A DNA stretch of 64,000 bases from Paramacrobiotus metropolitanus (Eukaryota > Tardigrada > Eutardigrada > Parachela > Macrobiotidae): the NCBI RefSeq assembly GCF_019649055.1, contig NW_026570349.1, positions 248,001-312,000 of the forward strand, read 5' to 3'. The notes below the pieces were generated by a model that was given only the letters and a program-made list of their open reading frames with translations, was not told the DNA's origin and ran no database searches. Made by a program: the position numbers and the translations under genes. Positions 8,570 through 50,064 of this stretch are shown in pieces. Each line of letters opens with the position of its first letter. Position 1 is the first letter of the stretch.

Positions 8570-8579
8570 AGGCTGAGTG

Positions 8580-9605: not shown

Positions 9606-9761
9606 TAATACTCCAAGTAATGCTGTACGTGGAGACGACGAATCCGACTCATACGATAATCTGCAGTATAACTACGGGTTGGGCTACACCGTGATGAACC
9701 AATAGCTGCCGAGCACACTGTGCTAGGGGTTTTGCCTTGAGTTGAAACGACTGATAGATAC

Positions 9762-9799
9762 TATATAAACCCTAGCATTTCAGTGCGGCTATTCAGTTG
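9762..9799 (+). promoter_or_regulatory. TATA box plus TCAGTTG initiator of the IAP gene
   Basis: TATATAAA at 9762-9769 is followed 30 bp later by TTCAGTTG (9792-9799), ten bases before the ATG at 9809, implying a very short 5' UTR. Confidence 0.6.
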
Positions 9800-9808
9800 G
9801 TAGCCAAA

Positions 9809-21660: not shown

Positions 21661-21694
21661 GCGGCTATATTAGACCTAATTGGGTCTTAGCCGC
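21661..21694. repeat. Two-tier hairpin with TAATTG loop
   Basis: Outer stem GCGGCTA/TAGCCGC and inner stem AGACC/GGTCT (21672-21687) around loop TAATTG, with TATT bulged on one side. Confidence 0.7.
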
Positions 21695-22809
21695 GAGGTT
21701 GGCACTCTAGGTTGTAAAGACGGGGTCCGTTCTGGTCCGTCCTTCGGCTGATCCCGTGCTTCTGCTTAGGCAGGAACACCCGGGATGCCGGTATCGAGGC
21801 ATCCTGGCTTGGTCATCGGGGAACACGTCCGTTCTGGGCGGTTCGTACCGTGGGATTCTCCACGGAAGGTCCATTCTGGATCCTGCCCGGGTAATCCAGC
21901 AAGTTCGGCTGGTATCCGTAGCCTCCTTCCGGGCGTGCAGTCGTGCCGGACTCGTGAATCCTCTCCCGGGCTTTAGTAGTCCTTCGGGGGATTGACGAGT
22001 ACGCTAACGTCCTTGTACATCCTTCCGGGGGTCGGATAGAACCTATTGGGCTCTTTCCTATTGGGTTCTCTACATCGAACCGCTGGCGCGCCGCTCTACG
22101 TCCGATCCATTCCGGGGGCTTGAGGGTAATTCATCCGCACGGCAAAGGCCTATTGGGCCTACCTGCCGAAGTTATTGGAATCTTCCATGGCTTCCGTCGG
22201 GCATGTAGTCATGCCGGACACGCGTCTCATTACTCGATCTTCTTCGAGGTCGAGCAAGGATACGCGTGTGCCCTAATGTCCTGACACGTTCCGTGAGATG
22301 ACCATGGTCCGGTTCGCGGGTGAGATGGTCATGCCGGTCATCAATACCATGAGTCCGATCCTCTGGATCGGAGCAATGGTATCGATGTGCCCTAATGTCC
22401 CGATCCATCCGTTCCGAAGGGGGTTTCTCCGGGCTGGAGGCCTATTGGGCCTCTACTGATACCGTACAGGTAGAGATCGTGGTTCACCGCGAGCTGCCGA
22501 GCTATGCCAGAGACCTATTGGATCTCTGCAAGCAGCCTCGAGGTTGAGATCGTAGTTGGCGCGGTCTGCGTAGCGGTCATCTTCCGAAGTCCGGAGTCCT
22601 TCTGCCGGAGGGACGAGCCATTGGAGCGGAGCGGGTTACCCTCCTCCACAATGGTTCGTCGCTTTTCGTACAAGGGATCCCAGGTGGAGTCAGCATCGTT
22701 CATCAGAGCCTATTGGGCTCGTCGCTGGTTTCAGAGTGCAGCCAGCTAATGCTCCAGGTCCCGGGTTATCCATCGAGGTCCTTCTGCCGGTCGGGTTTAA
22801 ACAGAGGTA

Positions 22810-22828
22810 CCCAGCAGATCGTGCTGGG
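22810..22828. repeat. Hairpin with GATCG loop
   Basis: Stem CCCAGCA/TGCTGGG, loop GATCG. Related hairpins: 23832-23848 (ACAGCA, loop GATCG), 24769-24783 (GGCAC, loop GATCT), 24573-24585 (CTGC, loop GACCT), 24664-24676 (CCAC, loop GGTCT), 24732-24744 (CCACA, loop GTC). This is a second hairpin series with changing stems in the 3' region. Confidence 0.65.
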
Positions 22829-23818
22829 AGCCCCTGGTTAACCTCCTTTCGTACGAAGGGTCCGATGATTAGGCCTTAACCTGGACTTCATCAGTATAGG
22901 GCTTATTGCTTCCTAGGCTGATAAGGTCCAGGCTGGTGGGGTCCAAAGGTAAGTCCTGCGGGGCCGGGGTTAAGGAGAAGTTGCTTCCCTAGCTCCCGTG
23001 GCCCGCATTCCGGTAAGCGGTGAGAGCCTATTGGGCTCTATGGTCAGAGTTACGGAACCTGTCTACCGGGATCCTTCTGCCGGAGGGGTCTGAGCAAGGA
23101 ACACTGTGTTGTGCGCAGTTGTGCTTGTCCATACCGCTATTCGTACGACGAGTCCCGTGAGGGTAGGTTATCACCCGGGCTTCATCGGTAGAGGGTCTAA
23201 GGCTTCCTTTTGCCGTAGAAGTCCGGGCTGGATTAAATGGGTGGGAGCCTATTGGGCTCCGAAGTCCAAGTTAGAGGACTGGTTTGCCGGGATCCTTCTG
23301 CCGGAGTGGCTGACCAGGGACGAGCTGCGTCTGCGCAGTTAGCCGCTAGCCAGCCGCCTTTTCGTGCGATTTGTCCCGTTGACGTAGCAGATTCGTGGTT
23401 CAGACCGCGATTTGTGGCTGTTCCACTCCTCCGATCCGGGGTTCTGACGTCGGGGTGTCCCTATTGGGGACAACTCCCTGGGTCGATGACGGATCCATGG
23501 TTGGTGTCATGGTCCGGGGCATTTTTATGGTTTTTCCTCCACAGGCTCTGCCGGAGTGGTCGACGGTGGCGGAGTCGCTGATTCAGCTGAAGCCAGCTAA
23601 ACCGTCACATATCTAGGCTCCGTCAGTGACGTTGCGTACCCTCGCTTATTGGCTCGGTTAGCCTCCTGTCATTGTCGCCGGTGACCGGAACATTCTGTCC
23701 GGTTCATCCAGGGGAAACCAGGGGGAACGTCCGGTACGGTCCATTTGGGTTGAACGCGTACTTATCGGGTTCATCCGAGGATCCATCCGAGGGTCGCTAG
23801 CTCTTCTGCCGTAGTGGG

Positions 23819-23861
23819 TTATCTGCGCAGGACAGCAGATCGTGCTGTACTGCGCAGATAA
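23819..23861. repeat. Long two-tier hairpin in the 3' region
   Basis: Outer stem TTATCTGCGCAG/CTGCGCAGATAA and inner stem ACAGCA/TGCTGT around loop GATCG, separated by one mismatched pair. This is the most stable-looking single structure in the element by eye. Confidence 0.75.
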
Positions 23862-25106
23862 GCCGCCTTTCGTACGAAGGGTCGTCGGACCACATTGTTT
23901 TAGGAGGTTTCTCTTCCAAAAGCACTGTTGGCCCTTTCCGTTAAGTGGTCACGCTGAGCCGTTCTAGCAACATGCTTGCCAAGTCCGGCTCAGCGTGGCC
24001 GAGGGTTCGCACGGGTTATCCCTCGCAGACGACGAGGTCTCAGTTCTGCCCGGATCGTCCATGGGGGATGGGGTCTCCAACGTCTACAGCAGCCTTTTAA
24101 GCGCTTTCCCCGGAACCTATTGGGTTCACAAGGTAGCTATCCGACGTTTTCGGGATCTAAGGTCCGGTCAGGTCCACTTCTTTGGACTCTGTTTCTTGAA
24201 CCGAGGCATTTAAGGTGATATGTCTCCCTAAAATGCCGTGATCCTTCCTTCCGAAGCTTCTCTGGTATTTCCGTTCCCCAGATGTAGGCGATGTTGCTCC
24301 CCACATCTAAGGGACGGAACTTAGGATTTCGTCCACGGGTGGAGGCCTATTGGGCCTCTACTCCGGAGCCTTCAAGGGTCCGGGTAGTTATTGAACAGTA
24401 TGTTCGTCGAGTGGCTTGATCGTGGTTCTGACCCGGCTGGCTTAGGCAGGGTCGAGATCTGCAGGCTGCAGAATAGTTAAGGTACCAGTGTCGTGGTTAC
24501 TCGCGATCTGCGGAAGGCTACTGCTGTATCCCTTATTGAGGGTCCGGCTAGTAGCTAGATCGTGGTTAGAGGCTGCGACCTGCAGTTTCCTCGCTGAGAT
24601 ACCCACCAGCCGTACTTGTGGCCGACCTCTGTGATATTCTTTGGTAGCAGAAGTAGTCAGATGCCACGGTCTGTGGGCTTGGGCTGGAGGCTCCATTCTG
24701 GGCCGGTGGTGGTAGCGGATCATGGTTAAGACCACAGTCTGTGGCTCCAAAGCAGAACGTGGTTAAGGGGCACGATCTGTGCCGGGGGTTAAAGGTAGCT
24801 GAATGTGGTTCGATCTGGTGCGATCTGCTCCATTAAAGGGTTAGTGCCGGAGGATCCGAGCCTTCTGACGGATTCTGTCCGGGGGAAACCGCGGGAGACA
24901 TACCGGTACGGTGCATCCACTGAAATTCTGACGGGTGCACCCGCAATTACCGGGTCGATCCGGGGAATCCGTTCCATAGGGTTCGTTTGGGCTTAGTACA
25001 GGGTGGGCTAACCCTACGTATCCCTTATTGAGGGTCCGTATGGGTAGCAGATGTGGTTACCCTGCGATTTGTGGGATTCTTCAGGTTTTGTCCGGGTAAA
25101 GTTCGT

Positions 25107-25129
25107 CGACATCCCTATTGGGGATGTCG
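25107..25129. repeat. Longest TATTG hairpin (9-bp stem)
   Basis: CGACATCCC, loop TATTG, GGGATGTCG. It lies about 70 bp beyond the stop codon of the last accessory ORF on the minus strand. Confidence 0.85.
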
Positions 25130-25195
25130 TCACGTCCATTTGGCCGGTTTTTTACGGTAAGCCTAACCCTATTGGGGTCCGGCTACCGGTCTCTT

Positions 25196-27448
25196 TCATT
25201 CTAAGTCCCCGACGACCGGGGCTCCACCACCGAAGTGGGATCCTTCCGAGTCGTCATCCTTATCCGGGCCGCGTTGCTCCGGTTGGTTTGAGGACGCGGC
25301 CTCCTGGGTACAGGTCGATTGGGGGTCCGGTGTCTCCTGACCTGGTTTTCCAGCCTTCACACGGCGCGCTTCCCGGCGGCGGCGATTTCGGCCGGATGAA
25401 GATGATCCGGGCCACATGTCATACCGATAGTATGACTTGCCCTCGGGCATCGGTGGCGAAGTGAATCCGGGCGGCAGGTGGCGATTGCATCTGCACCATT
25501 CGGAGAGGGTCGAAGCCTCATCAGTGTCGGTCTTCTCATCAGGGTAGTACTGGTACTCCTTCTTCCAGCGTTCCGCTGTCATAAGGAAGTCCCGAAGCCA
25601 CAAGCCGACTACTGCGTCCCGCATCGGTGTGCTGAGCAGTGCTACCGTGGTTCGCAGCCTGGGCGGGATGTTGTTGTTCCGGTACGCGCAGTACAAGGTG
25701 TAGTGGCTGTGATGGTGACCAAGCCGAGCCGCGAAAATCAGTCGCTGAGCCGTCAGGAAGGCCATCGGAGCATCTCCTTGAGCCTGTGGTTCTGCGGCTC
25801 CAAGGTATTCGGGAATGTTCCGGGATGCTCGGGCTGCAGTGACTACCATGGCTGCTTGTGCCTCTGGCAGCACGAACTGCGCAACCCATTCTGTATGGTC
25901 CGTGATCTCGCGTCCGTCCGAGTATATCGGAAGTTGGCTCAGCTGAGACCAATCGGGTCGATCCAGTGATGTGGCCAAGATGGCCGGGTCGGTGGCGCTG
26001 GGCAGGCCGTTGTTCCGGAAGTGCGGAAAGCCGATGCCGTACGCCAAGCGGTCAATCATCTGGAAGTCTTCCGACCACTGACGATGTTCAAACATCTGCT
26101 GGTATCCGGAGTTGTTGAGGAATTGTCGTAGGCCGTTCATCATGTTCCAGACTTGGGTCCGACGATCCTCTCGGTACCGCATGGTGGCCATAACGTAGTC
26201 CGTTCGTTCTGTCGGATGTGGAGTTTCCACCGCAATGCCCTGTCGGCGTGCATGGTCATACCGAGGGTCATGCTGGCCTGGCACCTCCACATCTAATATC
26301 GGGTACTGGGGCACCGGTAACTCGTCCGGGGCTATTACTTGTGGGTCCGGTCTCGAGGTCGGTGCTGGGTGTCGGGTCGCAGGTTGCGTGAAGTTTCGGC
26401 GGGACTTGGTGTTAGAGTCCACCACTAACCCTCCGTTATCCTCTGATTCGGACCGTTTGCCGGGGGAAGGTCGGGTTCGATCCTTCGAGGCTCGGTCGGT
26501 GGAAGCCCTGTTCTGACTCTCCAGCTTCCGACGCAAGTCGCCTTCCAACCGGTGACGTAAGTCGCCGGGGGCCAAGTCTACTATGCTCTGACTTCTTCGA
26601 TTGGACGGGGTGGACCCTGTTGGGGTCACTGCCACCGTCCCTGGCTGATCAGCCGAGCGAACTACCGGTTGAGCCGGGGTTTGAGGTAAGCCACTCACTT
26701 GCGGGGCTACCGGCTGTGGTTCCGGTTGAGCTTGCGGTATTGCCACAGAGGCTTGCGGTTGAGGAGGATGAATGATCTGGGCCATGTATTGCCGGCCGTC
26801 TGGTCCAATAAGTGCCACGGTGGCTCCTTGAAGGGGGATCGAATTCGCGACGAGTGCGTCGGCGACCACTGACATATCCATACCTCCTTCCGCATTTAGT
26901 ACATTCGAGAGTGCGGTGAAAGGTGCGGTGGGCTCGTCTGGGAACCTTTTGGGTTCCACTGCAAGCCTGCCGGGCGGGACCGTTGGAGGTGGGATATTCT
27001 CCCGGTTCATCCGCTCCTCATGCTCGCGCTGTCTGCGGGCAATCTCCCGGTCAGCTGCCGCTATTTCCCGTCGCTCTTCTTCGCGCTCCGTCTCCCTGCG
27101 TGCTTCACGGGCTTCGACCAGCCGAGGGTTATCCGGGACCGGTGGGGTGTTACGCCATCCGGGTTCCTGTCGGACCCGGCGGTGACGCTGCATGTCCCAC
27201 AGGTGGAGTATCTCCTGTGAACGCAGCTGGTCCAGGAATCGGCTAGAGCTAACCAGGTGAAGGTACGCGCTCAGGTTTCCAGTCACAACTTGAAGGTATA
27301 GGGCCACAGCCTGTTCTCGACGGTCGGCCCTATTGTCCGGAGCTTGCTTGTCCAGGTGCCGTAGCAAGCAGTCCGCGCAAGGTAAGCGGGTCCGCGGTGA
27401 GTCATTGTTGGCTCGGCACGTCTGGCACTCCGGGTTATAGGCCTCCAT
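25196..27448 (-). CDS. Accessory ORF 3 of the giant element, 750 aa, zinc-motif protein of unknown function
   Basis: Starts at an ATG (27448) and runs 750 codons. Residues 8-25 hold a CQTC...CADC pair (CxxC-x10-CxxC), a probable zinc site. An Arg/Glu-rich helical segment (about 105-145) is a coiled-coil candidate. A Gln/Pro-rich linker follows (about 225-290), then charged disordered sequence. A hydrophobic, apparently folded C-terminal block (about 470-680) contains YGIGFPHF, LPIYSDGRE, RLGHHHSHYTLY and a WLRDFL segment, and the end is a basic SSGRNRRRREARRV tract. CxxC motifs in the long insert of the pol ORF (CPEC, CPIC) look similar in style. No signal peptide or membrane anchor, so it is not a typical envelope protein. 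A second structural or RNA-binding role is a guess. Confidence 0.7.
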   Translation of the reverse strand: MEAYNPECQTCRANNDSPRTRLPCADCLLRHLDKQAPDNRADRREQAVALYLQVVTGNLSAYLHLVSSSRFLDQLRSQEILHLWDMQRHRRVRQEPGWRNTPPVPDNPRLVEAREARRETEREEERREIAAADREIARRQREHEERMNRENIPPPTVPPGRLAVEPKRFPDEPTAPFTALSNVLNAEGGMDMSVVADALVANSIPLQGATVALIGPDGRQYMAQIIHPPQPQASVAIPQAQPEPQPVAPQVSGLPQTPAQPVVRSADQPGTVAVTPTGSTPSNRRSQSIVDLAPGDLRHRLEGDLRRKLESQNRASTDRASKDRTRPSPGKRSESEDNGGLVVDSNTKSRRNFTQPATRHPAPTSRPDPQVIAPDELPVPQYPILDVEVPGQHDPRYDHARRQGIAVETPHPTERTDYVMATMRYREDRRTQVWNMMNGLRQFLNNSGYQQMFEHRQWSEDFQMIDRLAYGIGFPHFRNNGLPSATDPAILATSLDRPDWSQLSQLPIYSDGREITDHTEWVAQFVLPEAQAAMVVTAARASRNIPEYLGAAEPQAQGDAPMAFLTAQRLIFAARLGHHHSHYTLYCAYRNNNIPPRLRTTVALLSTPMRDAVVGLWLRDFLMTAERWKKEYQYYPDEKTDTDEASTLSEWCRCNRHLPPGFTSPPMPEGKSYYRYDMWPGSSSSGRNRRRREARRVKAGKPGQETPDPQSTCTQEAASSNQPEQRGPDKDDDSEGSHFGGGAPVVGDLE

Positions 27449-27689
27449 CCGGGGCTGTGGCTGGGGCTGTAGTCAAACTTAAATTTTTTTAAGTTATTTT
27501 TAAGTTTATTGGGCCTTACGTAAACCTATTGGGTTCTACGTTTTGTGGTTAAATAAGTACAACGGTCGGGTACGGTCGGTTCTCTTCCGTCCAAAGTTGT
27601 TCCCTCGAGCCTATTGGTCTCGAAGACGTTCCGTTGTAGAGGCTATCTACCCTTGCCTATTGGGCAAGGAGCCTCGGATGACTTGACTT
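27449..27689 (-). other. Gap between accessory ORFs 2 and 3
   Basis: About 240 bp with three TATTG-family hairpins: 27518-27541 (stem ACGTA plus AACC with one bulge), 27605-27623 (stem TCGAGCC with one mismatch) and 27651-27669 (stem CCTTGCC). Confidence 0.65.
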
Positions 27690-30600
27690 TCAGGTTGCTT
27701 TCCGGGTTCGATCCGGCAAATCGGCCGGGTTGATGGATTTCGCCCGTGCTAATCGTTTCTTGGACTCTTCTGCCCGGGCAGCCGAGGTAAGAGCTTTAGT
27801 TGGGCTCTCCGAGCTGGACCGGGTCTTAGGCAGATGTTGGCCAAAGTCCGAAGGTAGGTGGAAGACGGAGAAGCGCTGCGTGGGCGTCTTGTAGGCCTTA
27901 CTCATTCCGAGGGCTTTTTGCCGGCAGGCCTGCACCAGGACGTATTCCAGTTCATCCGCAAGGTGGTACAGGTTGCTCTCCTTCCTTCGGATCGGTCGGT
28001 ACCGATCATCTTCCAGTTGGGGTCTGGCGGACATGAGGATGAACTCGAACCGACCAATCAGGTGGCTCAGGATCTCCCGGCGAGTCAATCCGTCTGGGTG
28101 CCGATCCGTCCGCAGGCAGGCGATGACCGCATCGCGCCATCCAAGGTAAGTCTGGGGTGCAGGGTCTTGCTCCTCCCTCGGGAAGACGTAGTACGGCCTC
28201 CCGGTATGAGTGTAGACTCGAAGGATGGCTCCGGTCTCGTAAGCCAACCGACAGTATTCCTTGACTCTGTCGAGGTCGAGGTCGAACCAGCTTCCGTCTT
28301 TGTCGACGCGCCAGTGCTTCAGCAGCTGGTAAGCCAAGTCCGGGGTTGCGTATAGTGGGCCGGACCAGGACAGCGCCTTGAGTGCAGCATGTACATGCAC
28401 CCAACCTTCATCGGTGTCGGCGATCCGGGGCCTAAACTTTGGTTTAGCCGCTCGCATCGTCGCCGGCATTTTCGGCCGCGGTGGAACCCGTATTATGGGC
28501 CTCGATGGGATCTCCCGCGGTAACACTTGCGCTGTGTCCTGGTGCCACACCATGAGCAGTTGATCCCTCGGTGGGCTAGGTGTCCGTTCCCATAGCCCTT
28601 GCTGGTGAGTTGGACCCGAGACTCGCTGGTGGGAAGGGGCATCCCGGCAGGGGTCTTCACCATCCATCGGGTCATCTTGGTTTTCCGCCGGAGGGTCCTC
28701 GGGTTGGTCCGGGTCCTCCTGGTTAGGGTCCTGGGGTGCCGCTGTTGGCGGCTTCCCCTGATCTTCGTCATTCTCGTCATCTTCGTCGTCTGTTTTGCCG
28801 GATTTGTCGGAGTCTTGTTCCGACTCGGCCTCATCATCCTCCGAGGAAGGGTCTTCTTCCTCTTCCAGAGAGTGCGCATTCCGGGATGTCCGACCCTTAT
28901 CCTTAGACTTCTTAGGCGCAGACTGGCCCCTTCTTGAGGTTTCAGCCTGCGAGGTCGACAAGTCCATCGGGGAGGTGGGTTGCGGTGCCGGGGGAGCTGA
29001 CTGTGTGTCCTTAATGAACTTGCCCCGTCCATCTCGTACCACATGCTTAGATGCTTTATTGGCTGATTCCCGGGCCGAGGGTTCCATCATTCCGTAAACC
29101 TTCGAGTCCCCGGGTGCTCTAGGTCGGTCATGGGGGAATCTGCTACCCGCCGAGGCCGCTGTTGATCTGGCAAGTTCAAGCCAGACGTTCGCCTGGGCCG
29201 GTCGCGATCCCGGTGCCTTGGGTTGAGGGTCGACTCCGGCCGCGTCCCTGTTCTTGTTGTGGACGTACGAGATCCGGAGCTTCAGTTCCTTTCGTTTCGA
29301 TAAGGGGATGAAGTCGGGGACAGTGTACCGTAGGTTCTGTCCACGCTGCGCGTTGGTGGTCTGCAGCTCTCGGTCCCTGACCATTTGATGTAGGATCGGG
29401 GCGATCTCCGTCTGGATCGTTTCGATCTCGGCTTCACCTTTAGGCTTATCCCCGTAGGTGTACATCACGTTTAGGAACCGAGCGATCTGAAGTCGGGTCG
29501 AGCCTCGCGGATTACGGTAGTATCCGATGGCTCTGACGATTCTTTCGGGGATGGGTTCTTCCTGGCGGAGCTTGTTCGGTGGTTTAGGGAGGACCAGCTC
29601 TCCCATGGTGTCCCATGAGCGATGGAGTATAAGAACCAAGGCCTCGTCCTGTATCCAAGCGATGATCTTCGGCATGAACTGCTTGGTTAGGGAATGTCCC
29701 TTCTTCACGTGGTACGTCTCCGTCAGCTTGGCCACCAACTCCTGGTAGACGTCCCTTTTCTTCATGTCGGCGGTGGCGATCATGCGCCGAACATCCTCCT
29801 TAAAAGGGGCTTTGGGGAACGAAGGCTCGGGCTCCGAGGGTTGTCGGTCCGGCAGCCTCTCTCGGATATTGTCCGGGGCTGGTAAGTCAGACTGGTCGGT
29901 GTCCGCATCATAGTCCCAGAGTTCTTCATCGGAACCCTCGGCTAGATGTTCGGCGGACGCCGTATCCATCCGGTCAGACTCATCTAGAACCTTCGGTGGG
30001 ATCTCCGGTGAAGGTGTTCTCATCTCCAACTCCCGAGGTTCCGATTCTTCCTTCGGTTCCACCTTTCTAGCTTCCTCTCTACGGTTGGAGTTGTCGATCA
30101 TCCTTTGAAGCAGCGGGGTGCTTCGATCCAAGGGCTTGGGTGCCTCTATTGGAGGCTTCCCATCGGCCCATCGACGGATCTCGTCGACCCACGCGTCGAC
30201 ACTCTGACCAGGCTTCAGTTTCGGCTTAGGCCCCCGGTTCTTGTCGGGTTCCTGCCGGCCTGATTCGGCGTCTGACTCGCTGTCAGAGGATGACACCTGG
30301 GGTCTGACCCTTCTTCGAGTCCGGTCCCGGCGTCCCTCTGCGTCAGAAACGTCTGTGTCGTTTCCTCCGCGAGCCTTCTTGGGTAAACGGCTCGGTGACT
30401 CTTTCTTCGGGGCCGATTTCTTTGCTTCCCGCTTCTTCGGTACCGTAGCCGAGTTAGCCGAGTGGATGATTACTCCGCTAAGTCCCTGTGCCGGTTCATC
30501 ACAGACCTGGACAGAGGGTTCTCGGGTCGGCTGGACCATCCTTTTCGATGATACCACGGACACCTTATGGGTTCTCGTGGGTTTGAGGGTTTCTTGTCCG

Positions 30601-35048: not shown

Positions 35049-35226
35049 CGTTATGGGAGGCTATTGAGATAAGGAAATACGGCTCGTTAACATTCTGATT
35101 AAGCCGGGCAATTCAACTGAAGGTTCCATGCACAACTGAAGAGGTTCCATTCCGACACCAAAGGTCCATTCTTAACTTAACTATGTCCTAGCTAAGCCCT
35201 AACTAATTCTAAGTTCCCTATGGGCC

Positions 35227-41300: not shown

Positions 41301-42722
41301 ACCCTCATTGGGGGTCGGCGCCCGGGTGAGAACGAACTTGGAGTGCAGGTAGTCGCATCCAAGTAGGACTGGAACATCCGAGTTGTTCGGTTGAACATGG
41401 AAGGTATGGGGGCTAGTGTACCCTTGCAGCGTTACCGGTACGGTGCAGCAATGGGTCACTATGAAGGCTAGTTGTCCGCCAACACCGAGGATTTTGGTGT
41501 AGCACCCCATGGATTCGAGTTTGAGGTTGTTGGCCCGGCAGAAACGCTCCTCTATTAGGGTTGTTTCGGCTCCGGTGTCCAACATTGCCATAGTTGTGGT
41601 CGGTCCAATCTGGACTTCATGGGTCCATGCCCGGACTACCTTCGGTCGGCCGGTGGACGAATGCGGTTGGAAGGTCACTTCCCGTATGGTGACTTCCACC
41701 GGAATTAGGGTTGATTCGCCGGGTACACTATCGGTGTCTACACGCGGCGGTTGCAAGGGTTGCTGGGCAGGTCTGACTGAGTCTACTCCGTCTTGTGGGT
41801 AGACGACCAGTGTTCCAGCCATATCCGAGGCTCGGTTGCGTCGGATAAGTCCTTCAGCCGGGGTTGGTCGGCCCGGTGAAACCTCGTTGACCGAGTGTTG
41901 CACCTCTGGTCGGTTAGCTACTCCGTCCATTAGTGCTTCGGCGGTTTCTACCGGGGCTATTCGGCTGTTGATCAGTTCTTCCATGGTTGGTTCTCCTTCC
42001 CGCAGCGTCGGTAGGTTATACTGCATGTTGAAGAACGTGCGCGATCCAGTTACAGTTCTCGCTGGCTGGCGTTGGAAGAGGTCCGCTTCCTCCGGCCGAG
42101 AGTAGACGGGTACCTGTACTTCCAGTGGGACTGATTCCCATCCCTCCGGAGTCTTTGCTCGTACGGTGGGATCTTCCGTTCTTTCGACGGGCCGTCCTCC
42201 CGGTTGGCCTACCGGTGACGGTTCGGATGTCATTCTGGCATCCTGCGAGGTTGCGGGCCGGCGTCCCGGTTGTCCGCTGAGCCCGGGGTTCGTAGTACCT
42301 AATTGGGTACTGAACCCTCCAGGCGGCTCGGTGACGTTTCTCGTCCCGGCCGGTCGGTTCCGAGTTCCTCGGCCGACCCCTCCGGCACCTCTTCTGGGGC
42401 CGGGTGGAGCATTTCTTGCTCCTGCCGATCGGGCCAAAGTTCCTTGGCCGATCCCCCCGGGTACCTCTTCTGGTCCGGGAGCCGCATTATCGGTACTGCG
42501 AGGTTCGGGTCGGTTCTCCGAGTTTCCGAACCGGGGAAGTCCGGTGCCTAGTTGGGCTACCGTCCCCGCCGCCAAGGTTGTGGAAGCTTCGCTGACCGTT
42601 GCGGAGGCTAAATCCAAGCTGTCATTCCGAGTTGTGTCCAAAGGGTTAATCCGGTTAGTAGGGTTATCCTTATCCGGTGGTTCCGTTGGATGACGGAGGT
42701 CGAATGAGTCACCGGAGCTCAT
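38341..42722 (-). pseudogene. pol: pol, 5' part: protease and truncated reverse transcriptase
   Basis: Starts at an ATG (42722) six bases after the stop of the preceding ORF. A disordered N-terminus of about 375 residues precedes an aspartic protease (MLDTGAETTLIE near residue 380; VLLGCDYL near 455). Next is an unusually long insert of about 870 residues with CPEC and CPIC zinc-like pairs and a Ser/Asp/Glu-rich run near 40130-40220. The reverse transcriptase starts near residue 1340 (GVIEPSDAAWSFPVV, NYIKLNAVT, DCQSGFWQI, TFVTPEGMYRF). It ends abruptly: the FGL-NAP segment and the YxDD catalytic box are absent, and the next recognisable sequence is the connection motif in another frame. This copy cannot encode active RT. 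Confidence 0.88.
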
Positions 42723-42727
42723 CGACC

Positions 42728-43696
42728 TTAGCCGTTTCCCTGGGACGTTCCCGGGGCCGGCCCGCCAGCTACCGGTGAAAACCTACCCTGGCTCCTATTT
42801 GGAGCCGGGGAAGGCGGCAACTGCGGCCGCTGGCCTGGTGGCGGACTCGCCAACGGGGCCCGACCGCCGCTTTGACGGTTTGCCCCGCCCCCTTGGGCAG
42901 GCTGCTGATTTCCTCCGCCGGCATTCTGCTGACGGGGTCGCGGTGGTGGCACTATGCTGGCGTAGTTCGGATTCGCCGAACCCAGTGGCCATCCGTTGTC
43001 ATAACGGTACCGCCAGTCGTTGTACCATCTCCGGTTGAGGTTGTCCTGTTCCCGGAGTCCGGCATCCCCACAACTCGCTTGGTTGTGGTTGCCCCACATG
43101 CAGTGGGAACACGAGATCGTTCCGTCCTGTGTCCACTGGAAGAACTTTGCTTCCATCCGATCGACGTAGGTCGCTAGTTGGCGAGCCTCCTGCTGTGGTG
43201 TGCGGGGTTGCCGTTGGGCATTCTGCGCCGGGCCACCTCCGCCTCCGCGGTTGCCGAAGTTTCCGCGACCGCGATTCCCGCCGCCACGTCTTCTGCCGAA
43301 GCCTCCATATTGTGGGGCTCCACCGCCTCCACATCCGCCTCCAGAGCCATACCCCTGGTTCTGAGGTTGACCGTAACCGGAGTTCTGGCCGTAACCCTGT
43401 TGGGGTTGGCCGAAGCCTTGTTGAGGCTGACTGAAGCCGGGACTCCGGGGCTGGCTGTAGCCCTGTTGGGGCTGGCCATAGCCGGAGTAACCCTGGCTCT
43501 GAGGTTGGCCGTAGCCGGGGCTCCGAGGTTGACTCGGTTGGCCACTATTTCCGTAAGCGGGCGGCGGAACCGCGGTCCCTATTGGGGACCCGTTAAGGTT
43601 CATCGCCGCCATCGCTGCCCAAGTTTGATCGAGTTGGGCTCGGGCTTGAGGAGGGGGTGTCGCCGGAGGGCTTGATCGGTGAAGCCCTGGTTGCAC
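42728..43696 (-). CDS. gag: gag, nucleocapsid-like ORF with prion-like repeats, RGG box and zinc knuckle
   Basis: Overlaps the capsid frame by about 100 bp in the -1 frame. It begins with many YGQPQ/QGYSQP repeats (about residues 50-115, low-complexity, prion-like), then an RRRGGGNRGRGNFGNRGG-type RGG region, then one zinc knuckle, CSHCMWGNHNQASC (C-x2-C-x4-H-x4-C), near residue 205, and a Pro/Gln-rich end. Nucleocapsid proteins bind and condense genomic RNA. The Gln/Gly/Tyr repeat array resembles phase-separating RNA-binding proteins and is unusual for gag. Four hairpins of the TGTTG/TATTG loop family fall inside the gene. Confidence 0.85.
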   Translation of the reverse strand: MQPGLHRSSPPATPPPQARAQLDQTWAAMAAMNLNGSPIGTAVPPPAYGNSGQPSQPRSPGYGQPQSQGYSGYGQPQQGYSQPRSPGFSQPQQGFGQPQQGYGQNSGYGQPQNQGYGSGGGCGGGGAPQYGGFGRRRGGGNRGRGNFGNRGGGGGPAQNAQRQPRTPQQEARQLATYVDRMEAKFFQWTQDGTISCSHCMWGNHNQASCGDAGLREQDNLNRRWYNDWRYRYDNGWPLGSANPNYASIVPPPRPRQQNAGGGNQQPAQGGGANRQSGGRAPLASPPPGQRPQLPPSPAPNRSQGRFSPVAGGPAPGTSQGNG

Positions 43697-44930
43697 GTTC
43701 TGGTAACCTGGCGAACTGGGTTGGATGTAGCCGGGGGCCTGTTGAGTTGCTGAGATGGGCGTCGCCGTTCTGACGGTGATGTAATTGGTGGTATGCCACC
43801 CTTCTGAACCTCATACATCGGCCTTCCCCGGGTGAAATCCCGAAGGTAGTCGCGGAACTCCTGCGTGGTTTTAGGCATTCGGATGTCCAAGGCCGCCCGT
43901 AGGTTCGGCTCCAAGACGTTTGCCCGCAGGTAGTGGACGGCCAGCTGATCGCTGAGGTTGCCTCGCTGTTGGAGGTTAATGATAGCATCATAGCACTGCT
44001 CCGGGGTCTCTTGCCCGAACTTGTACTTTCGGTTGGTGATGTCCGCTATCGCCGTCACCTGCTTATCTGTCTCCGCGAAGCGGGCTGCGAACTGCTGGAG
44101 CCAGTATTCTACCGGCCAGCCGTTCTCCTCAGGTTCCAGGGCCGACTGGTTCTGGAACCAGTCCAAGGCTTGCCCGGTGAGGACGCTCTCCACTTCGTTC
44201 ATGAAGGCGGTGTTGGATATCCCCATGTCATCCGCCTCCTGGCGATAGATTCGCCGGATTTTAGTGATCCACCCCTCCACTTTGGATCGATCGCCGTCGA
44301 ATTTCGGCAGGTCGCCCCGGAGCTTCTTGGCTGCGATCCGAGCCATTCGCTCTTCGTACCGGTTTCGGCCTTCTTGGTAGCCCTCTTGTCGGGCTTGCTC
44401 AATCTCCTGTTCGAGTACCGCGGGCTGATAGGCCTGTATCGCCGGTTGTGCCTGTTGGGCTACCGGAGGATACAAGGCCGGCACGTATGGTACATGCTGC
44501 AGTTGCGCGGCCGGGGCTGGTTGAGGTGGGTTCGGTTGAGGGTGAGGGTTCGGGTTTCCCGGGGGCGCCGGCTGTTGTGGCTGTCCTGGCCCGGGCGGAG
44601 GGTTCTGTGCTCCATACCCTTGGTTCGGCGGAGGATTCTGCGCTCCATAGCCGGGGATCATCTGGAGGACTCCGTTCTGGTCGAGCCACATCCCTGGTGG
44701 CACTACCAGATACCGGTCAACCTGCGGCGCTGGACCTATTGGGCCCTGCCGAAGCTGATGAGGCTGGTTAGCCGGGTAGCCGGGGTTCTCCGGGTCGGAC
44801 CAGTCTCTTTGTCCTCCTTGAGCTGGTTGTGGTGGGGCTAGGGATGGGTACGCGTTCTGCGAGTTAGCCCTTCCTCGGTCGTCGCCGGAAATTGCCGAGT
44901 CAGGCTGTAGACCTCCTATTGGGAAGTTCA
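43600..44930 (-). CDS. gag: gag, capsid ORF
   Basis: The frame is open from about the stop of the coiled-coil ORF (44928) to 43600. It begins with Pro/Gln/Gly-rich sequence (YGAQNPPP repeats), followed from about 44330 by a retrotransposon gag capsid domain: LPKFDGDRSKVEGWITKIRR, LTGQALDWF, a WPVEYWLQQF segment, and LRANVLEPNLRAAL ending near 43850. Capsid forms the particle shell. There is no ATG at the natural start, so it is probably made by -1 frameshift from the upstream frame, or from an alternative start. Confidence 0.85.
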
Positions 44931-46462
44931 GCGGTGGCCTGGATCCGGTTCCATTGCCGAAGTTATCCGACCCGGCAGCCGGGGCTCGAGGGTTTGAGCC
45001 TCGGGTTGACCCTGTTGTCGGGTGTCCGGGTTCGGTCTGGGTGCTGTTGATGCCGCGGGCCTGGTGCCGGTTGAGAACATCACACTTGCGGACGTTCCCC
45101 CGAAGGCCATGGTTGTTGTTGCCGTGGATTGGGTCGGTACGTTGGACGTGGCCGTCGAAGTGTTCCGTTCTGGCTCCGGGGCCGAAGGGATTGGTGGCCT
45201 TCGCGGTATGTTCCCGGTGGACAGCGGCTCGCCCTGGATGACTCCGACCATATAGGTTTGGTCAGTGGACATCCCCGGTTGGCCTATTGGGCCAAGCAGG
45301 GGGTTGTCCCGGAGCAGGTAGTCATCAATCTGATGACACTTATCCTGCACCTGAGTGGTCTGATATGACGGGGGTTGCTCGTTGAGCGACTCCTCGAGGT
45401 AGGACTTCTCTGCGTTGAGGCAGGCCACCTCGATGTCCCGTTCTTCCTTTTCTTGGAGGTATCCGCGGATGATCTTTGCCGCTTCGCAGTTGTACTCGAA
45501 CATTTCGTTCAAATACTCGATAAACTCCTTCTCTTTGGCCTCCAGTTGGGTAATTCGGGCTCGTTGAGCCTCGATGACCTTGAGGTTCTCTCTTCGGTCA
45601 TTCTCAAACCGAGCGGTTTCGCTCCGAAGATGGTCGTTGAGGCCGTAGATTTGGTCGGTGAGTTGGGCTTGGCATAGCCGAAGGTCCACGGCTATACCCT
45701 CCGGGTCGTTCTGATTCAGTCGGAGGTTCTCATAGGCCTGCCGGAGGACTTCGAGCTCTGATTGGAGCTCGTCAATTTCTCCCTCCAGGCCGATAATGCC
45801 CTGCTTTAACCGGTTGTTCTCCTCCCGGTATTTATCTACCCGACCCAGCATGTCCAGCAGGTAGGCCGAGGTAGCCTCCGAGTCGCTAAGGGTCAGTAAC
45901 CGCTCCTCCAAGTCATAGCGAAGGGTGGCCACTTCAGCGCGAGACTGCTCCAGCATGTCCTGGAGTCGAGCGATTTCGTTCTCGTCATATCGGCAGGGCG
46001 CTTCAGTTGCTTGTAACTGGGCCTCTAACCGTTGGATCTGTTGGGTAAGGTCGCCGATAGCGATGTTCGCGCTATCTAGGTCAGCCGTAAGCTTCTTGCG
46101 CTCACGCTGATGGCTGTTCACCGTTTGAGATAAGACGTTTTCCGTCGACTCCACGATGTTATTGGCGGCTACGAGTTGATTCTGCAGTTCGTAGATCCGT
46201 TGACGGAGGACCTCCGGATCATGGATCTTCTCCGGTGGAGTCTTCGTTAGGTATCGGTGAGGGGTGTAGTCCGAGACTCCAATGTGGGAACCAGGGTACT
46301 GCTTCGGTAGGGAGTTCGGAAGAACCCTTGCGAGCTGTCCGGACGTCCGGTCGTCTGATTGGGCAACACGGTATCGTCGAAGACGTCATCAGTCGGTGAC
46401 GGTGTCTTACTACTCTTTCCACTCTTTCTCGTCATCCACTCTTTCTCGTCATCCACTCTTTC
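44928..46462 (-). CDS. gag-like long coiled-coil ORF
   Basis: Open from about 46386 to a stop at 44928. From about 46240 to 45390 it is a near-continuous heptad-rich coiled coil of some 270 residues (Leu, Glu, Arg, Gln; LQNQLVAANN, LTQQIQRLEAQL, LEGEIDELQSELEVLR). A Ser/Thr/Pro-rich region follows. Upstream, a neighbouring frame carries MTRKSGKSSKTPSPTDD, which would join it by a frameshift near 46330-46385 and continues toward the Ser/Pro/Thr ORF beyond the nested LINE. So this is probably the second half of a single large N-terminal gag protein, split by the LINE. A scaffold or matrix-like role is inference. Confidence 0.7.
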
Positions 46463-46464
46463 TT

Positions 46465-47720
46465 ACAACACGAATATTTTTGAATATTTTATAAAATGGG
46501 TGATTCTTCGTATTCTTTCGACTTTTCGGGATCCCAGATGAATTGGAAAACTTTTCTACCAGATTTTGAAAAGTTTGTCAACTCTGTGGAAAGTATGAAA
46601 TCGGAGATTGACACCCTGAGAGCCCAGAATGTGTACTTAACGGGCCTGTTGAAAAAGCATAGGTCGTCACCGAGCGTTGATTTGTCTGTTGCTTCTCCTC
46701 AAAACTGTGAGATAACTACGCAGAATTTGAATGTCAACAAGTTCAATGATGCCCTTGATGATTTGTCGCAGCGTGTGTATTTACTGGAATGCAAAAAAGA
46801 AGAAGAACTTGGGTTTGGTGTGGACCACGATATTGCAACCAACGGTAGCGTTAAGGCTGGAATGTACGATCCCCACGTTGTGCAGACTATAAAGGAAAAT
46901 TTCGGATATCAGGACCCCAGAATTCGTGATCGAGCTCGGGCGCTGGTAGCTGAAAGAAAAGCTATGGCAAAGGAAGGAAAACTGTGGAAGCCACGTAAGA
47001 TCAATATCCCTAAACTCATGGTTGGGCCGGGGTCATCCCCACCCCGGCTGCTGGGATACATTCAAGATATTGATGGCGAGCCCGCTGAATCCACCACCAA
47101 GCAAGCTGCTACTGGGCCGATTGCCTCTGTGAAAACTCCATCGTATGCTGCTGTAACGAAACGACAACCGAAGACTATTCGTGGTGAACAGGATGCTGAT
47201 GTAGGAAATGGTGAGCAAGCGAACGTTTTGATCCAGGCTTTGCATTGCAACCGTAAGCCTCATGCTGATTTTTGTGTACGAGGTATTCCTCGCTTGGGTA
47301 ATTCGAAATTTCTAACATCAAAGAGTATAACACCTTTATATCGGATCAGCTAACCGCAGCTGGGATTGCTACAAGATTTGTGAGCGTTTTTGTCCCTCCC
47401 CCTGGGGACAGAAGAACGTCAACGTTTGCCCGTGTTGGAACCTTCAAGGAAGCTTGCGAAAAGATTTTGGACCCTAAGATCTGGCCGTCAAACGTATTCG
47501 TTAGGGAATGGGTTTACTAATTTTCTGCCTAAGTGTATGAATTTCATTTAGAAAATGTCGACAATTTCAAATTACGTGAAGTTTTCTTATGGCTGAATAC
47601 TGTTGTCGCTATCGGTTTACAAAGATCTCGTCTTTGTTTGATTGCTGTCTGAAGCCTAGAGGGGCTAACGCCTCGTTGCAAGGACATTAAACTCCATTAT
47701 TATTATTATTATTATTATTA
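46465..47720 (+). mobile_element. Nested ORF1-only non-LTR retroelement (HAL1-like)
   Basis: An insertion in the opposite orientation to its host. It has a 5' segment, an ORF1 (46496 to about 47520), then directly a short 3' end with GGGGCTAACGCCTC (a small hairpin) and an (ATT)n tail at 47693-47720. No reverse transcriptase or endonuclease is present. The target-site duplication could not be fixed; the left edge is near TTTCTTACAAC. It interrupts the first gag-like ORF, which runs into the tail as a run of Asn codons. Confidence 0.7.
46496..47520 (+). pseudogene. LINE ORF1 protein, frameshifted
   Basis: Residues 20-60 form a short coiled coil (ESMKSEIDTLRAQN). The C-terminal part resembles ORF1 of CR1/L2-type LINEs: after a frameshift near 47300 the second frame reads RTSTFARVGTFKEA and WPSNVFVREWVY before a stop at about 47520. 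ORF1 proteins bind RNA. The frameshift and missing ORF2 make this copy dependent on another LINE. Confidence 0.65.
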
Positions 47721-48832
47721 CTAGCCCGGGGTTCCGAGGGTTCGAACATGGGTGGGGTCGGTGGAAGGTCCTCTGTCGGCTTCTCCTTCTGAGGCGACGC
47801 GGATTTCGACTTCCGAGACGATTCCACCCGGCTCGTTTTGGTCAAGATGGGTTCGCTTCCCGGTGAAGGCCCGGTGACGGGGGTCCGAAGCCCGGTGGCC
47901 GAGGTTCCTTCGGTTCCGGACGGTGAAAACCGGAACTTAACCGGGGAAATGGCCTTTTTGGCCGGAGAAGTAGGGGTTGCAGACCGGTTTTTCGGAGTTC
48001 CGACCTGTTGGGTCGGGGTCCGAGCCCCGGTGTTAGGGGTCTTGCCCGGCTGCAATGTCCCCGATGACGACTTCTGGCTTCCCGAAGTCGGCCTTGGTGA
48101 GTCCAAGGTCCGAGTTGGGGTCCCTGTCCGGGGCTTCGGGTCCGGTGACGTCATCTTCGGAGTCCCCGAGGTCCGTTTCGGGTCCGGGAATGTTGATTTC
48201 CGGGTATTGCCCGGAGACTTAGGGTTTCCACCCGGGGATACCGGGGTTTTGACCGGTGAACCCGCTTTGTGGGTCACCTCCCGGGCCGGTGGAACCTTCC
48301 CTCCAGTCTGGTTGGGGCTCTTCTGGGTCTGCCTCGGGTCCGTTCCGGCTCCCATGCCACCCTGTTGGGGTGACACCGGGTCACCCATGTCCGGTGACTC
48401 CGCGGCACTGCTTAGTGTCGGGTCCGAGGCTCCACTGTCCGAGGACTTAGCCGGAGAAGTGCTTGGCATGGCACCTATTGGGTGCCCATGTCCCACTACA
48501 GGCTCCGGGTTCACCATGTCTTGGCCTATTGGGCCAAGCAGAACCTCCGGTTCAGCCTGTGATGGCTCCAAGAACGTCCGGTCATGGGCGTCCTCGAAGC
48601 TATCCTCCGGCGATTGGTTTGAACCGGCTCCCAGGATCCGCTGGTCACGCTTCTCCTTGGCTGAGCTGGGTGACTTGTCCGATTTGTCGGACTTTGTCGA
48701 CCGATTGGAGCCTGTTGATTTGGGCTCCGGGTTGCCCGGGCCGGCGTGGCGGAAAGTGTACCCACCAGCCTGGTCACGTGGGGCGTAACTCTGGTCGAAC
48801 TTCCGAGCGTAGATGTCCTCCCGCCCAGACAT
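47721..48832 (-). CDS. Ser/Pro/Thr-rich first ORF of the giant element (gag N-terminus?)
   Basis: Best start ATG at 48832 (MSGREDIYARKFDQSY). About 370 residues, almost wholly disordered, with many SP, TP and KSP-type sites (SGTPKMTSPDPK, TGTPTRTLDSPR) and little hydrophobic sequence. It is cut by the nested LINE at 47720. TATTG-family hairpins at 48470 and 48520 lie in the coding sequence, as do the TGTTG hairpins at 48000 and 48358. Function unknown; possibly a phosphorylated matrix- or tether-like part of gag. Confidence 0.6.
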
Positions 48833-50064
48833 GTCCAAGTACAGCTCTATTGGAGCCGTGAACTAGCCTCCGGGTTATCCCTTCGGCCGATGAAGTCCGG
48901 ACTTGTCCCTAATTGGGGACGTCCGTGATGAAGGGTCTTTGCCTTTACGGTCCGAGGGTCCGAAGGTCCGGTGGGGTGGGGATGATGTAGTGTATGTACT
49001 TGTACTACTTGCAACTCAGTACTGGTATTAATACAGGGTAGAGCTTACGTACGTCCTATACTACCGTACTGACCGCTATGACGTCACACTGTTAAGTGGT
49101 CTTGCGGATTACTGCCTACGTCACGATTCTGCGTGCCGTGTGCAAATTTCGAAAAAACAGTGACTCACTACGGTCCTTTAACACAGGGAATTTCCCCGCG
49201 ATTCTGATTGGCTGGTCTTAACTATGGGATTTCGGCCAACGTGACGTCACAATTATTTTAAAATTTGAATTAATTAATTTCCGCGATAAATAAAATCCGG
49301 AAAAATCGACAAAAATTCAGAAAAATTAATTTAGCCGACCAAAAATTGATTTGGCCGGGGGAAAGTTATTCCCTTAATTTTCCGAAAGTTGGAAAAGGTT
49401 GAAAACCCAAGTTCTAAGGGTCTTCACCGAGGCTCGAGGGTTCGACCTAGTAAGGCCGGCTAAACCCTAAATCTACCCGAAAATAGATGTTTTAAGCCCG
49501 TTTTTCCGGGTGAAAAAGGTTTCTAGCCGTACGAAACTAGTTTTCGTCGGTGGAAAATAAAAATCGCCCGGTTCTATCGGGTTCTTAAGGCTCTACGAAG
49601 GTCTTAAAGACCTATTTACCGGGTGGGCACGGGTTGGGTGCCGTCCGTGAAGTCCGTGAGGGTCGATCCGCCGGATTCTCCGGGTGAAATCCTCCCGCAA
49701 GTGTTGGTAAAGTTGCGGGTGCTACTTAAAGCAAAGGCGACCCCGTTGTTGAGGCTTGAAAGGGTTCCGTCCGATGTTGTGAGGGTTCCGCAGGAACGTT
49801 CCGTCCGCAAGTCTACCCGGGCCAAGTCGTTCCGCTGGCCGTAAACGCCGGATCGTTCCGTCCGCACGCAAGAGAAGAGTCCGCTGAGGCTTTCTGCCCG
49901 CAAGAGAGAGAAGAGGGACCAGACCGTTCTGGCTGGCGGCGATCAGATGGGGATAGGAACCGTTTTACCGATTCTCCCCTTTCTTCTCGTCGGCCGTTAC
50001 GGCTGTAATTCTACACCGTCTTCTCAAATGGTCCGTTGAAGGAAAACTCAACGATATGCTATCA
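48833..50064 (-). other. 5' leader of the giant element
   Basis: 1.2 kb between the 5' LTR and the first ORF. No credible coding frame. Immediately after the LTR on the minus strand the sequence is TGATAGCATATCGTTGAG, the position of the primer-binding site; it does not begin with the usual TGG, so the primer tRNA is unclear. A hairpin with stem GTCCC and loop TAATTG is at 48905-48920. The part around 49250-49350 is AT-rich. Confidence 0.6.

Follow-up and report, generated by a model that had tools for sequence, protein, structure and literature searches.

A family of CAAYA-loop hairpins along a giant Ty3-type retrotransposon of the tardigrade Paramacrobiotus metropolitanus

The element and its reading frames

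The window analysed here is a 64-kb (64,000-nt) stretch of the Paramacrobiotus metropolitanus genome. Positions 19679-50479 hold a 30.8-kb LTR retrotransposon of the Ty3 type (Table 1). Its two LTRs are 415 bp each, agree at 404 of 408 compared bases, have TG...CA ends and are flanked by a short target site duplication (GTGGG, 5 bp). The Pfam domains of pol follow the order protease, reverse transcriptase (RT), RNase H, integrase (RVP, RVT_1, RT_RNaseH, Integrase_H2C2, rve). RVP scores 21.6 bits against a cut-off of 20.7, and RVT_1 is a partial match of 23.5 bits, under its cut-off of 29.6.

A Pfam search gave no match for the RGG/CCHC ORF, whose product is a candidate reader of the hairpins described below, or for other large ORFs of the element. 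The open frame around gag covers 1414-1702 residues in four other copies, where it would run on into pol; in one copy a stop falls within the match. Since other copies have this longer frame, the break in gag in the window copy is probably not a family trait.

Table 1. LTRs, reading frames and hairpins of the element, in window positions. Every feature is on the minus strand; hairpins are named by loop (DNA letters) and stem length.
Feature	Positions	Context	Evidence, or state in other copies
3' LTR (TG...CA)	19679-20093		direct repeat with 50065-50479
CATTA in window copy, 6 bp	20164-20180		CAATA in 15/17 copies
CAGTA in window copy, 6 bp	20872-20888		CAATA in 13/18 copies
CAATA, 6 bp with G.U	20964-20980		
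CAATA, 6 bp with G.U	21184-21200		
CAATA, 6 bp with G.U	21394-21410		
CAGTA in window copy, 6 bp	21524-21540		CAATA in 3/5 copies having the site
CAATTA, 5 bp	21672-21687		
CAATA, 6 bp with G.U	22038-22054		
CAATA, 5 bp	22146-22160		
CAATA, 6 bp	22437-22453		
CAATA, 8 bp with G.U	22508-22528		
CAATA, 5 bp	22706-22720		close copies: compensated change GAGCC to GGGCC; distant subfamily: stem broken past 3 bp
CAATA, 6 bp	23023-23039		
CAATA, 6 bp	23244-23260		
CAATA, 6 bp	23456-23472		only 3 bp in distant subfamily
CAATA, 5 bp	24113-24127		
CAATA, 6 bp	24342-24358		
CAATA, 9 bp	25107-25129		four different fully paired stems
CAATA, 5 bp with G.U	25165-25179	3' of 750-aa ORF stop	
CAACA, 5 bp	26613-26627		
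CAAAA, 6 bp	26941-26957		
CAATA, 5 bp with G.U	27522-27536	intergenic	
Hairpin, one mismatch in window copy	27606-27622	intergenic	better, different stems in most of 14 retrieved relatives
CAATA, 8 bp	27650-27670	intergenic	
CAACA, 5 bp, weak candidate	28738-28752		
CAATA, 5 bp, weak candidate	30142-30156		
CAACA, 6 bp	33055-33071		
CAACA, 5 bp	34597-34611		
pol, two overlapping frames	35227-42722	protease, RT (partial match), RNase H, integrase	Pfam
CAATTA, 6 bp with G.U	38910-38927		
CAACA, 5 bp	39815-39829		
CAATTA, 6 bp plus outer helix	42294-42311	in pol ORF	compensatory changes in both helices (distant copies)
RGG-rich ORF with a single CCHC motif	42728-43696		translation, motif by eye
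AAATA, 6 bp	42790-42806		
CAACA, 5 bp	43393-43407	in QPQQGY repeats	codon repeat possible
CAACA, 5 bp	43459-43473	in QPQQGY repeats	codon repeat possible
CAATA, 6 bp	43574-43590	in RGG/zinc-knuckle ORF	
Gag capsid ORF	43600-44703		weak Ty3_capsid match, E 0.0097, under Pfam cut-off
CAATA, 5 bp	44732-44746	before gag	broken in few copies
CAATA, 6 bp	44911-44927	directly 3' of coiled-coil ORF stop	absent in distant subfamily
CAATA, 6 bp	45279-45295	in coiled-coil ORF	weaker in distant copies
CAACA, 6 bp	48000-48016	in ORF1	
CAACA, 9 bp with G.U	48354-48376	in ORF1 (another frame)	
CAATA, 6 bp	48470-48486	in ORF1	
CAATA, 7 bp	48520-48538	in ORF1 (frame LGPIGQ)	TGGCC/GGCCA to TGACC/GGTCA
CAATA, 7 bp	48841-48859	just upstream of ORF1	compensatory changes
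CAATTA, 5 bp	48905-48920	leader	register shift in distant subfamily: AGTCCC-CAATA-GGGATA
5' LTR	50065-50479		direct repeat with 3' LTR

The hairpins and the pairing of their stems

An earlier note on this DNA had proposed many hairpins with a TATTG-type loop closed by CC/GG, all in one orientation. Both points hold. CC-(TATTG, TAATTG, TGTTG, TTATTG or TATTT)-GG occurs 45 times on the plus strand of the 64 kb and never on the minus strand, and 44 of the matches lie inside the element. CCTRTTGG has 39 matches, all on the plus strand, where 4.04 are expected (100 dinucleotide shuffles, largest count 9). Read in RNA sense the stem is 5-6 bp with mainly C-G closing pairs. The CAAUA loop first proposed is the main form, but it is better written CAAYA, with the minor forms CAAUUA, CAGUA, CAAAA and CAUUA. 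The set runs from 20164 to 48920, so the start first given, 21661, was too far in.

The sense anchor CC-CAAYA-GG is found 35 times in the element and not once antisense. Pairs 3-5 are all paired at 30 of these anchors, G.U allowed, and 5 have no full 5-bp stem. Over 300 dinucleotide shuffles, anchors average 0.56 (at most 4) and stemmed ones 0.023 (at most 1). The flanks were said to hold no hairpins. This is true of stemmed CC-CAAYA-GG, but there is one stemless anchor, and the one loop match outside the element (18617) has a 3-bp stem. When all loops of 3-7 nt in the window copy are compared, TATTG is the strongest (16 of 58 with a perfect stem of at least 5 bp, p ~1e-28). With CTATTGG, which contains it, set aside, TGTTG (8 of 65) and TAATTG (4 of 9) come next. 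The same scan of the flanks gave no comparable loop enrichment, and Rfam 15 at gathering score had no match in 19600-50500. All 58 exact hairpins with a listed gag match within 32 kb have the orientation of their element, and three of them adjoin gag of only 42-44% identity. Chance is excluded as the origin of the set, and its orientation is fixed.

The 43 sites are unevenly spread. Two short intergenic gaps are the densest, at 8-9 per kb, followed by the RGG ORF (4.1), the 3' non-coding region (3.6) and the first ORF (3.5). Pol and the 1798-aa ORF have 0.4-0.5 per kb; part of the sparse coding sites could have a chance origin. None was found in the 3' LTR stretch 19679-19978 or the 1.3-kb nested insert. 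Hairpins do occur both in non-coding DNA and within ORFs, as first claimed: 25 of the 43 sites are outside ORFs, and 19 sites fall in the 5-kb 3' non-coding region, where they are not all independent because that region contains internal duplications.

The claim that outer stems differ yet stay paired is borne out across sites. Given the anchor alone, pair 3 is paired at 33 of 35 sites, pair 4 at 32 and pair 5 at 31, with differing letters. Pair 6 is paired at 20 of 35, and pairing beyond it is near background. Among the element's 247 other CC-N5-GG anchors, 25-39% are paired at pairs 3-6. Covariation across sites is 0.654 versus 0.152 when shuffled (0 of 500 shuffles), and the anchor is all that the 35 aligned sites have in common.

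Covariation between copies of the element, which the earlier note had proposed to test, is seen too. At least two Watson-Crick types occur in 24 of 212 orthologous pairs, at 17 of 39 sites, compared with 6-13 such pairs in each of ten slid controls; this takes one row per copy wherever overlap was noticed (25 of 214 versus 7-14 with duplicate rows), and the rows are not independent since the copies are related and partly decayed. Watson-Crick cells make up 82% at orthologous sites versus 11-39% in slid controls. Compared with the window copy at 25 sites, identity is 86-99% for loop and inner pairs, 71-87% for the outer stem letters and 69-91% for the flanks: the loop is conserved and the stem varies between relatives.

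Individual sites show compensatory changes between aligned copies whether they lie in non-coding DNA or within an ORF; the coding cases are in ORF1 and pol. At 48520-48538 relatives carry Gly to Asp plus a matching silent change that keeps the pair (read by eye). The stems at 44732-44746 are GGGCC/GGTCC, GGACC/GGTCC or GGGCC/GGCCC. At 42294-42311 four of six retrieved copies have the anchor; one copy has U.G at pair 2 and another a broken closing pair. The hairpin at 27650-27670 is recognisable in 14 of 14 retrieved relatives (24 found), with inner pairs changed in two. The distant subfamily has lost 44911-44927, as well as 22706-22720 and 23456-23472 beyond 3 bp.

On the sense strand G.U exceeds A.C by 11 to 1 in the window copy and 34 to 15 over all retrieved DNA, whereas tallies of distinct pair types, by event (53 versus 46) or by haplotype (70 versus 62), are not significant on their own. 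Since G.U prevails by most measures, RNA is probably the form under selection. This agrees with the earlier note, which had argued for RNA structure from covariation and orientation. We consider it well supported by these comparisons that some 40 short hairpins form a family under selection in the sense RNA of this giant element.

What could read the hairpins

We argue, at a probability of roughly one half, that the hairpins form a dispersed cis element read by its loop, with Gag as the reader and packaging or assembly of the genomic RNA as the function. A factor would recognise the loop rather than the stem letters, and many sites would raise avidity along the 30-kb RNA. The most likely reader would be the element's own Gag, perhaps its RGG and CCHC zinc-knuckle part, using the hairpins to select, coat and compact genomic RNA in particle assembly. 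They would then be multivalent Gag or RNP-assembly sites like the packaging signals of some RNA viruses, which likewise have many stem-loops with a common loop motif genome-wide. Packaging is also the best fit among the three functions first suggested. It must be noted that the 3' and 5' parts hold most of the hairpins; spliced RNAs, if there are any, would have these parts too, and the set may therefore mark more than the genome. More tentatively, the set may be a genome-wide RNA recognition code, a CAAYA hairpin repeated dozens of times with stems drifting in pairs and Gag condensing a 30-kb RNA.

The reader could instead be a host RNA-binding protein or an accessory protein of the element, serving export, stability or translation of the 30-kb RNA. 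We regard this as unlikely, but it is the strongest competitor. Export elements such as RRE or CTE are compact rather than dispersed, and coding sites in gag and ORF1 would be unusual for one. However, the hairpins are dense in untranslated RNA (the 3' non-coding region and two intergenic gaps), the element has large ORFs without Pfam match, and the Cer1 accessory protein CERV is described as exporting genomic RNA (PMC10309623).

That the loops pair with a complementary URUUG or UGUUG strand is improbable. A candidate in the same RNA is UGUUGGG at the start of U3; it could pair with CAAUA (one G.U) and CAACA. Pyrimidine freedom at loop position 4 suits pairing to G, and of the 16 aligned rows (window included) that have letters at the LTR edge GGCCCAACA, 13 match it exactly. 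But the complementarity is short and was noticed post hoc, the loops CAGUA, CAAAA and CAUUA do not fit, and the LTR edge is under constraint as an integrase end as well.

We give an equally small chance to an explanation at the DNA level, whether a self-spreading mini-palindrome, a cruciform or a CCAAT-type protein site. Certain hairpins lie within indels and are found in one subfamily but not in another, and CCCAATAGG contains CCAAT. The self-spreading palindrome of the earlier note is a poor fit: a copied palindrome would bring its stem letters with it, and instead the stems differ at nearly every site while matching locally. Ten of 35 anchors carry CCAAC, a CCAAT site needs no palindromic arm, and the single orientation and G.U over A.C on one strand also speak against DNA.

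A frameshift, readthrough or termination-reinitiation signal is less probable still. Hairpins do sit close behind stop codons (44927, 27670, 25179) and one (43590) about 10 nt past the capsid ORF stop, but the 19 sites in the 3' non-coding region do not fit the translational role once suggested, and the gag frame break is probably no trait of the family. Finally, that the hairpins are a codon by-product of a repeated peptide is very improbable: several coding sites encode (L)GPIGQ, but the hairpins in ORFs are read in all three frames (as PIG; as PQQG or QLG; as PNK or PNR), so no peptide explains them, most sites are outside ORFs, and 48520-48538 keeps its pair through an amino acid change. 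A dispersed peptide motif in one frame is refuted as a general cause.

If the Gag packaging reading is true, this would be the first LTR element, in the literature searched, whose dispersed packaging signals can be recognised in the sequence by itself; the search found no similar hairpin set in an LTR element. With one evident loop and compensatory evolution over tens of copies in one genome, the family provides a clean, naturally occurring data set on which multivalent RNA recognition can be tested, and it bears on the handling of a 30-kb RNA by giant retroelements. The hairpin as RNA bait is a handle for finding the binding protein.

Comparison with known systems

In retroviruses and Ty1/Ty3, as proposed here, genome RNA is selected by a Gag with an RNA-binding part. 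The known packaging or Gag-RNA sites there are few structures, mostly 5', and we know of no case with some 40 like hairpins. Parechovirus 1, STNV and HBV have multiple dispersed RNA packaging signals, with proposed multivalent capsid protein contacts.

The giant Ty3/Gypsy elements Burro (planarians) and Ogre (plants) are likewise about 25-30 kb with extra ORFs (PMC6431247), in hosts other than tardigrades; the parts of that description consulted contain no such hairpin set. Cer1 is likewise an LTR retrotransposon of an animal, and an accessory protein acts on its genomic RNA; a word search of the paper gave 'RNA element' 0 times and 'hairpin' once, in a protein fold (PMC10309623). The alphavirus nsP1 signal selects genomic RNA through its 4 to 6 stem-loops, in which a GGG is conserved (PMC8233893), but it is confined to one gene and has another loop.

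In RNA viruses, the evidence for dispersed packaging signals comes from short, degenerate motifs that were identified by aptamer selection and structures (PMC7793301). In the tardigrade element, an LTR retrotransposon, one loop is evident in the sequence by itself, and its binding by Gag is a proposal. Enterovirus E offers a precedent for such a mechanism: it is reported to carry 29 dispersed stem-loops with a common purine loop motif, which are proposed to contact coat protein (PMC7793301). In both, many short stem-loops are spread over the genome with a shared loop and varying stems, but here the loop is far more uniform (CAAYA with two mostly fixed inner pairs) than in the RNA viruses.

Pairing, orientation and spread of the hairpins

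The hairpin set was examined through its anchor CC-CAAYA-GG, which is the loop and the two inner pairs; pairs 3-6 are counted outward from the loop side. This sense anchor occurs 35 times in sense and 0 times in antisense within the element, and once in the flanks. The earlier note held that the hairpins all point one way, and its loop forms bear this out with 45 on the + strand and 0 on the - strand of the 64-kb window. The 35 sites were picked by loop and inner CC/GG alone, so outer pairing is free of ascertainment. Pair 3 is formed at 33/35 sites, pair 4 at 32/35, pair 5 at 31/35 and pair 6 at 20/35, and pairing beyond that is near background. The element's other CC-N5-GG anchors (n = 247) are paired at 25-39% for pairs 3-6. 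Pairs 3-5 are all paired at 30 of the 35 anchors; 300 dinucleotide shuffles give an expectation of 0.023. A separate pattern search with its own shuffles concurs (39 matches vs 4.04).

The earlier note proposed a covariance model as a check, and one trained on these 35 sites agrees. It gives 43 matches in the window at E <=1, all sense and all within the element (34 training sites and 9 new). From E 1 to 10 there are 22 further matches, as expected by chance: 3 are on the other strand and some others fall in the flanks. The Rfam families have no match to the element. The local fold probability of the stem is 0.95 in sense (43/43 above 0.5) and 0.82 in antisense (38/43); these values fail to separate the strands because either strand can form the stem. 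The covariation score of the 35-site alignment is 0.654 vs 0.152 shuffled (0/500), and slid controls do not exceed 0.196. AU, UA, GC and CG are all represented among the pair types, and the two inner pairs are invariant by construction of the anchor. Two of five covariation measures do not stand apart from the shuffles (pairs changed on both sides 4 vs 4.0; further pair types 18 vs 15.9, 69/500), owing to the small number of pairs and the variability of the columns.

The 169.8-Mb assembly (533 contigs) contains two exact hairpin 15-mers 52 and 55 times; reversed controls give 0. A gag hit lies within 32 kb of 58 of these 107 occurrences (58 gag hits used, of 121 rows). All 58 share the element's orientation. 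Three of them adjoin a gag of 42-44% identity (contigs C48, C59, C105), and on that sequence evidence the hairpin seems to extend past the close family. The other 49 are without a gag hit among the 58 used. Many of these belong to loci alignable to the element (e.g. C12, C109, C138, C313, C379), and the rest are unexplained. The 78 fetched loci, which overlap and are not independent (20 were drawn from pattern hits), have 627 anchors that follow the locus's majority orientation, and pairs 3-5 are formed in 466 of these. Six loci are without anchors. Only 2 anchors go against the majority, both in one locus (L022) where a second element may adjoin.

The host element

The element is of Ty3 type, and the 404/408 identical compared bases are from its two LTRs of 415 bp each. 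Gene order on the - strand starts with ORF1 (383 aa) and an ORF of coiled-coil type (408 aa), followed by capsid and by an RGG-rich ORF that includes a CCHC motif. Protease-RT-RNase H-integrase comes next, then several ORFs lacking a Pfam match and a 5-kb stretch in which no ORF reaches 150 aa. The capsid ORF has a weak Ty3_capsid match (E 0.0097). Its one protein match is annotated in Paramacrobiotus metropolitanus, with a 100% identical protein on another contig (C325), and this species is almost certainly the host. The ORFs of 383, 408, 750 and 1798 aa have no convincing Pfam assignment, and the 408-aa one has coiled-coil-type matches. A protein search with the 750-aa ORF found nothing among 8000 candidates scored. 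For the 1798-aa ORF no sequence in PDB matched at E 0.1, and the structure predicted for its residues 1479-1798, with no alignment used, has a mean pLDDT of 37.9 and is useless.

Since neither a TGG-type tRNA primer site nor a clear polypurine tract was seen by eye, priming of the element may be unusual. The LTR edge resembles the hairpin's CC-CAACA, and its sense RNA, UGUUGGG, is complementary to the loops. The AT-rich inverted repeat may act as a promoter within the element or in translation. Second hairpin families suspected by eye, with loops such as GATCT, ATTCTG and TTCG, were rejected; no other loop is comparably enriched in the window copy alone. Many other loops score too in 18 pieces, a result confounded by redundancy of the copies.

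Features of the window, with stems written in sense
Feature	Coordinates	Observation
Two adjoining inverted-repeat arm pairs	5401-9614	374 and 664 nt, 99% complementary
ORF enclosed by the arm pairs	7110-8240	
IAP-like BIR/RING ORF	9797-10564	adjoins the inverted-repeat region
Giant LTR element	19679-50479	30.8 kb; 5-bp target duplication GTGGG
LTR edge GGCCCAACA	20085-20093, 50471-50479	exact in 13/16 aligned rows with letters
Before 3' LTR	20094-20112	no clear polypurine tract (by eye)
3' non-coding region	21000-25195	diverged repeat units in which further phrases recur, e.g. CCTTTCGTACGAAGG, CTTCTGCCGGAGG, beside hairpins (by eye)
Hairpin site	22706-22720	only 3 bp left in distant subfamily
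Hairpin site	23456-23472	only 3 bp left in distant subfamily
Hairpin site	25107-25129	CGACATCCC/GGGATGTCG, ACGGCCC/GGGCCGT, ACGTCCC/GGGACGT, ACGTCTC/GAGACGT
AT-rich inverted repeat AACTTAAA...TTTAAGTT	27470-27500	slightly upstream of the 750-aa ORF's ATG; counterpart in both subfamilies
Hairpin site in pol	42294-42311	GGGTTC-AGTACC/GGTACT-GAACCC, GGCTC-AGTGCC/GGCACT-GAGCC; closing pair broken in 1/6 pieces
Hairpin site	44911-44927	missing in distant subfamily
1.3-kb insert	near 46412-47717	interrupts window copy; missing from relatives matched on both sides; 285-aa + strand ORF; free of the set's hairpins
Hairpin site in ORF1	48520-48538	TTGGCC/GGCCAA, TGACC/GGTCA
After 5' LTR	50030-50064	no TGG-type tRNA primer site seen (by eye)

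Stem changes between copies and the probable selected strand

Orthologous sites were compared in 18 copies for the 3' non-coding region (window and 17 fetched), in 15 for an intergenic gap, and in up to 30 rows for leader/ORF1 and coil/gag, where seven rows repeat a copy already present in another row. The 3' non-coding alignment permitted wobble on the + (antisense) strand, so its stem lengths that include G.U are set aside. Stem covariation between copies, which the earlier note proposed to test, is found as compensatory sets in coding and non-coding sequence. A Gly to Asp change in the ORF1 site is paired with a matching silent change. At least 2 Watson-Crick types are present at 24/212 pairs of 39 sites once duplicate rows are dropped, vs 6-13 in ten slid controls (25/214 vs 7-14 with duplicates kept). 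The most conserved letters at 25 sites are the loop and inner pairs, which match the window at 86-99%. In the outer stem (71-87%) letters drift at a rate similar to the flanks (69-91%).

Selection on the sense RNA should tolerate G.U more than A.C. Pairs 3-5 of the window copy have 11 G.U vs 1 A.C, against a background that tilts to A.C (0.160 vs 0.094 for G.U). Of the single departures among the 171 distinct anchored 17-mers of all fetched DNA, 34 are G.U, 15 are A.C and 19 are of another kind; the difference between G.U and A.C has p = 0.009. G.U outnumbers A.C in the true register, in cells (196 vs 100) as well as in pair types; in all ten slid controls A.C is ahead on both counts. Counted as distinct pair types per site the G.U excess is not significant (53 vs 46; by haplotype 70 vs 62), and decayed copies might dilute it. 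We argue that G.U over A.C gives moderate support, from sequence, for RNA as the selected form.

Candidate readers of the loop

These comparisons establish a selected hairpin that is near-constant in its loop, dispersed and oriented. A factor would then read the loop, and Gag is our first-ranked candidate. Three points put it there: the element codes for an RGG/CCHC protein, the sites occupy coding as well as non-coding RNA, and RNA viruses have dispersed stem-loops sharing one loop motif as proposed capsid-protein contacts (PMC7793301). The main rival is that another protein reads the hairpins for export, stability or translation (PMC10309623).

Other causes fare worse. A frameshift element, one possibility in the earlier note, is hard to square with 19 sites in the 3' non-coding region and with the long open frames that surround gag in other copies. 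The self-spreading palindrome it also raised is unlikely, since no stem is carried over from one site to another. The peptide motif GPIGQ is out since coding sites use all three reading frames, and a CCAAT box is out as a general cause with CCAAC at 10/35 anchors.

At 30.8 kb the tardigrade element is comparable in size to Burro of planarians (PMC6431247). The open-licence literature searched describes no such hairpin set in an LTR element. Alphavirus PS are a further RNA-virus case (PMC8233893).
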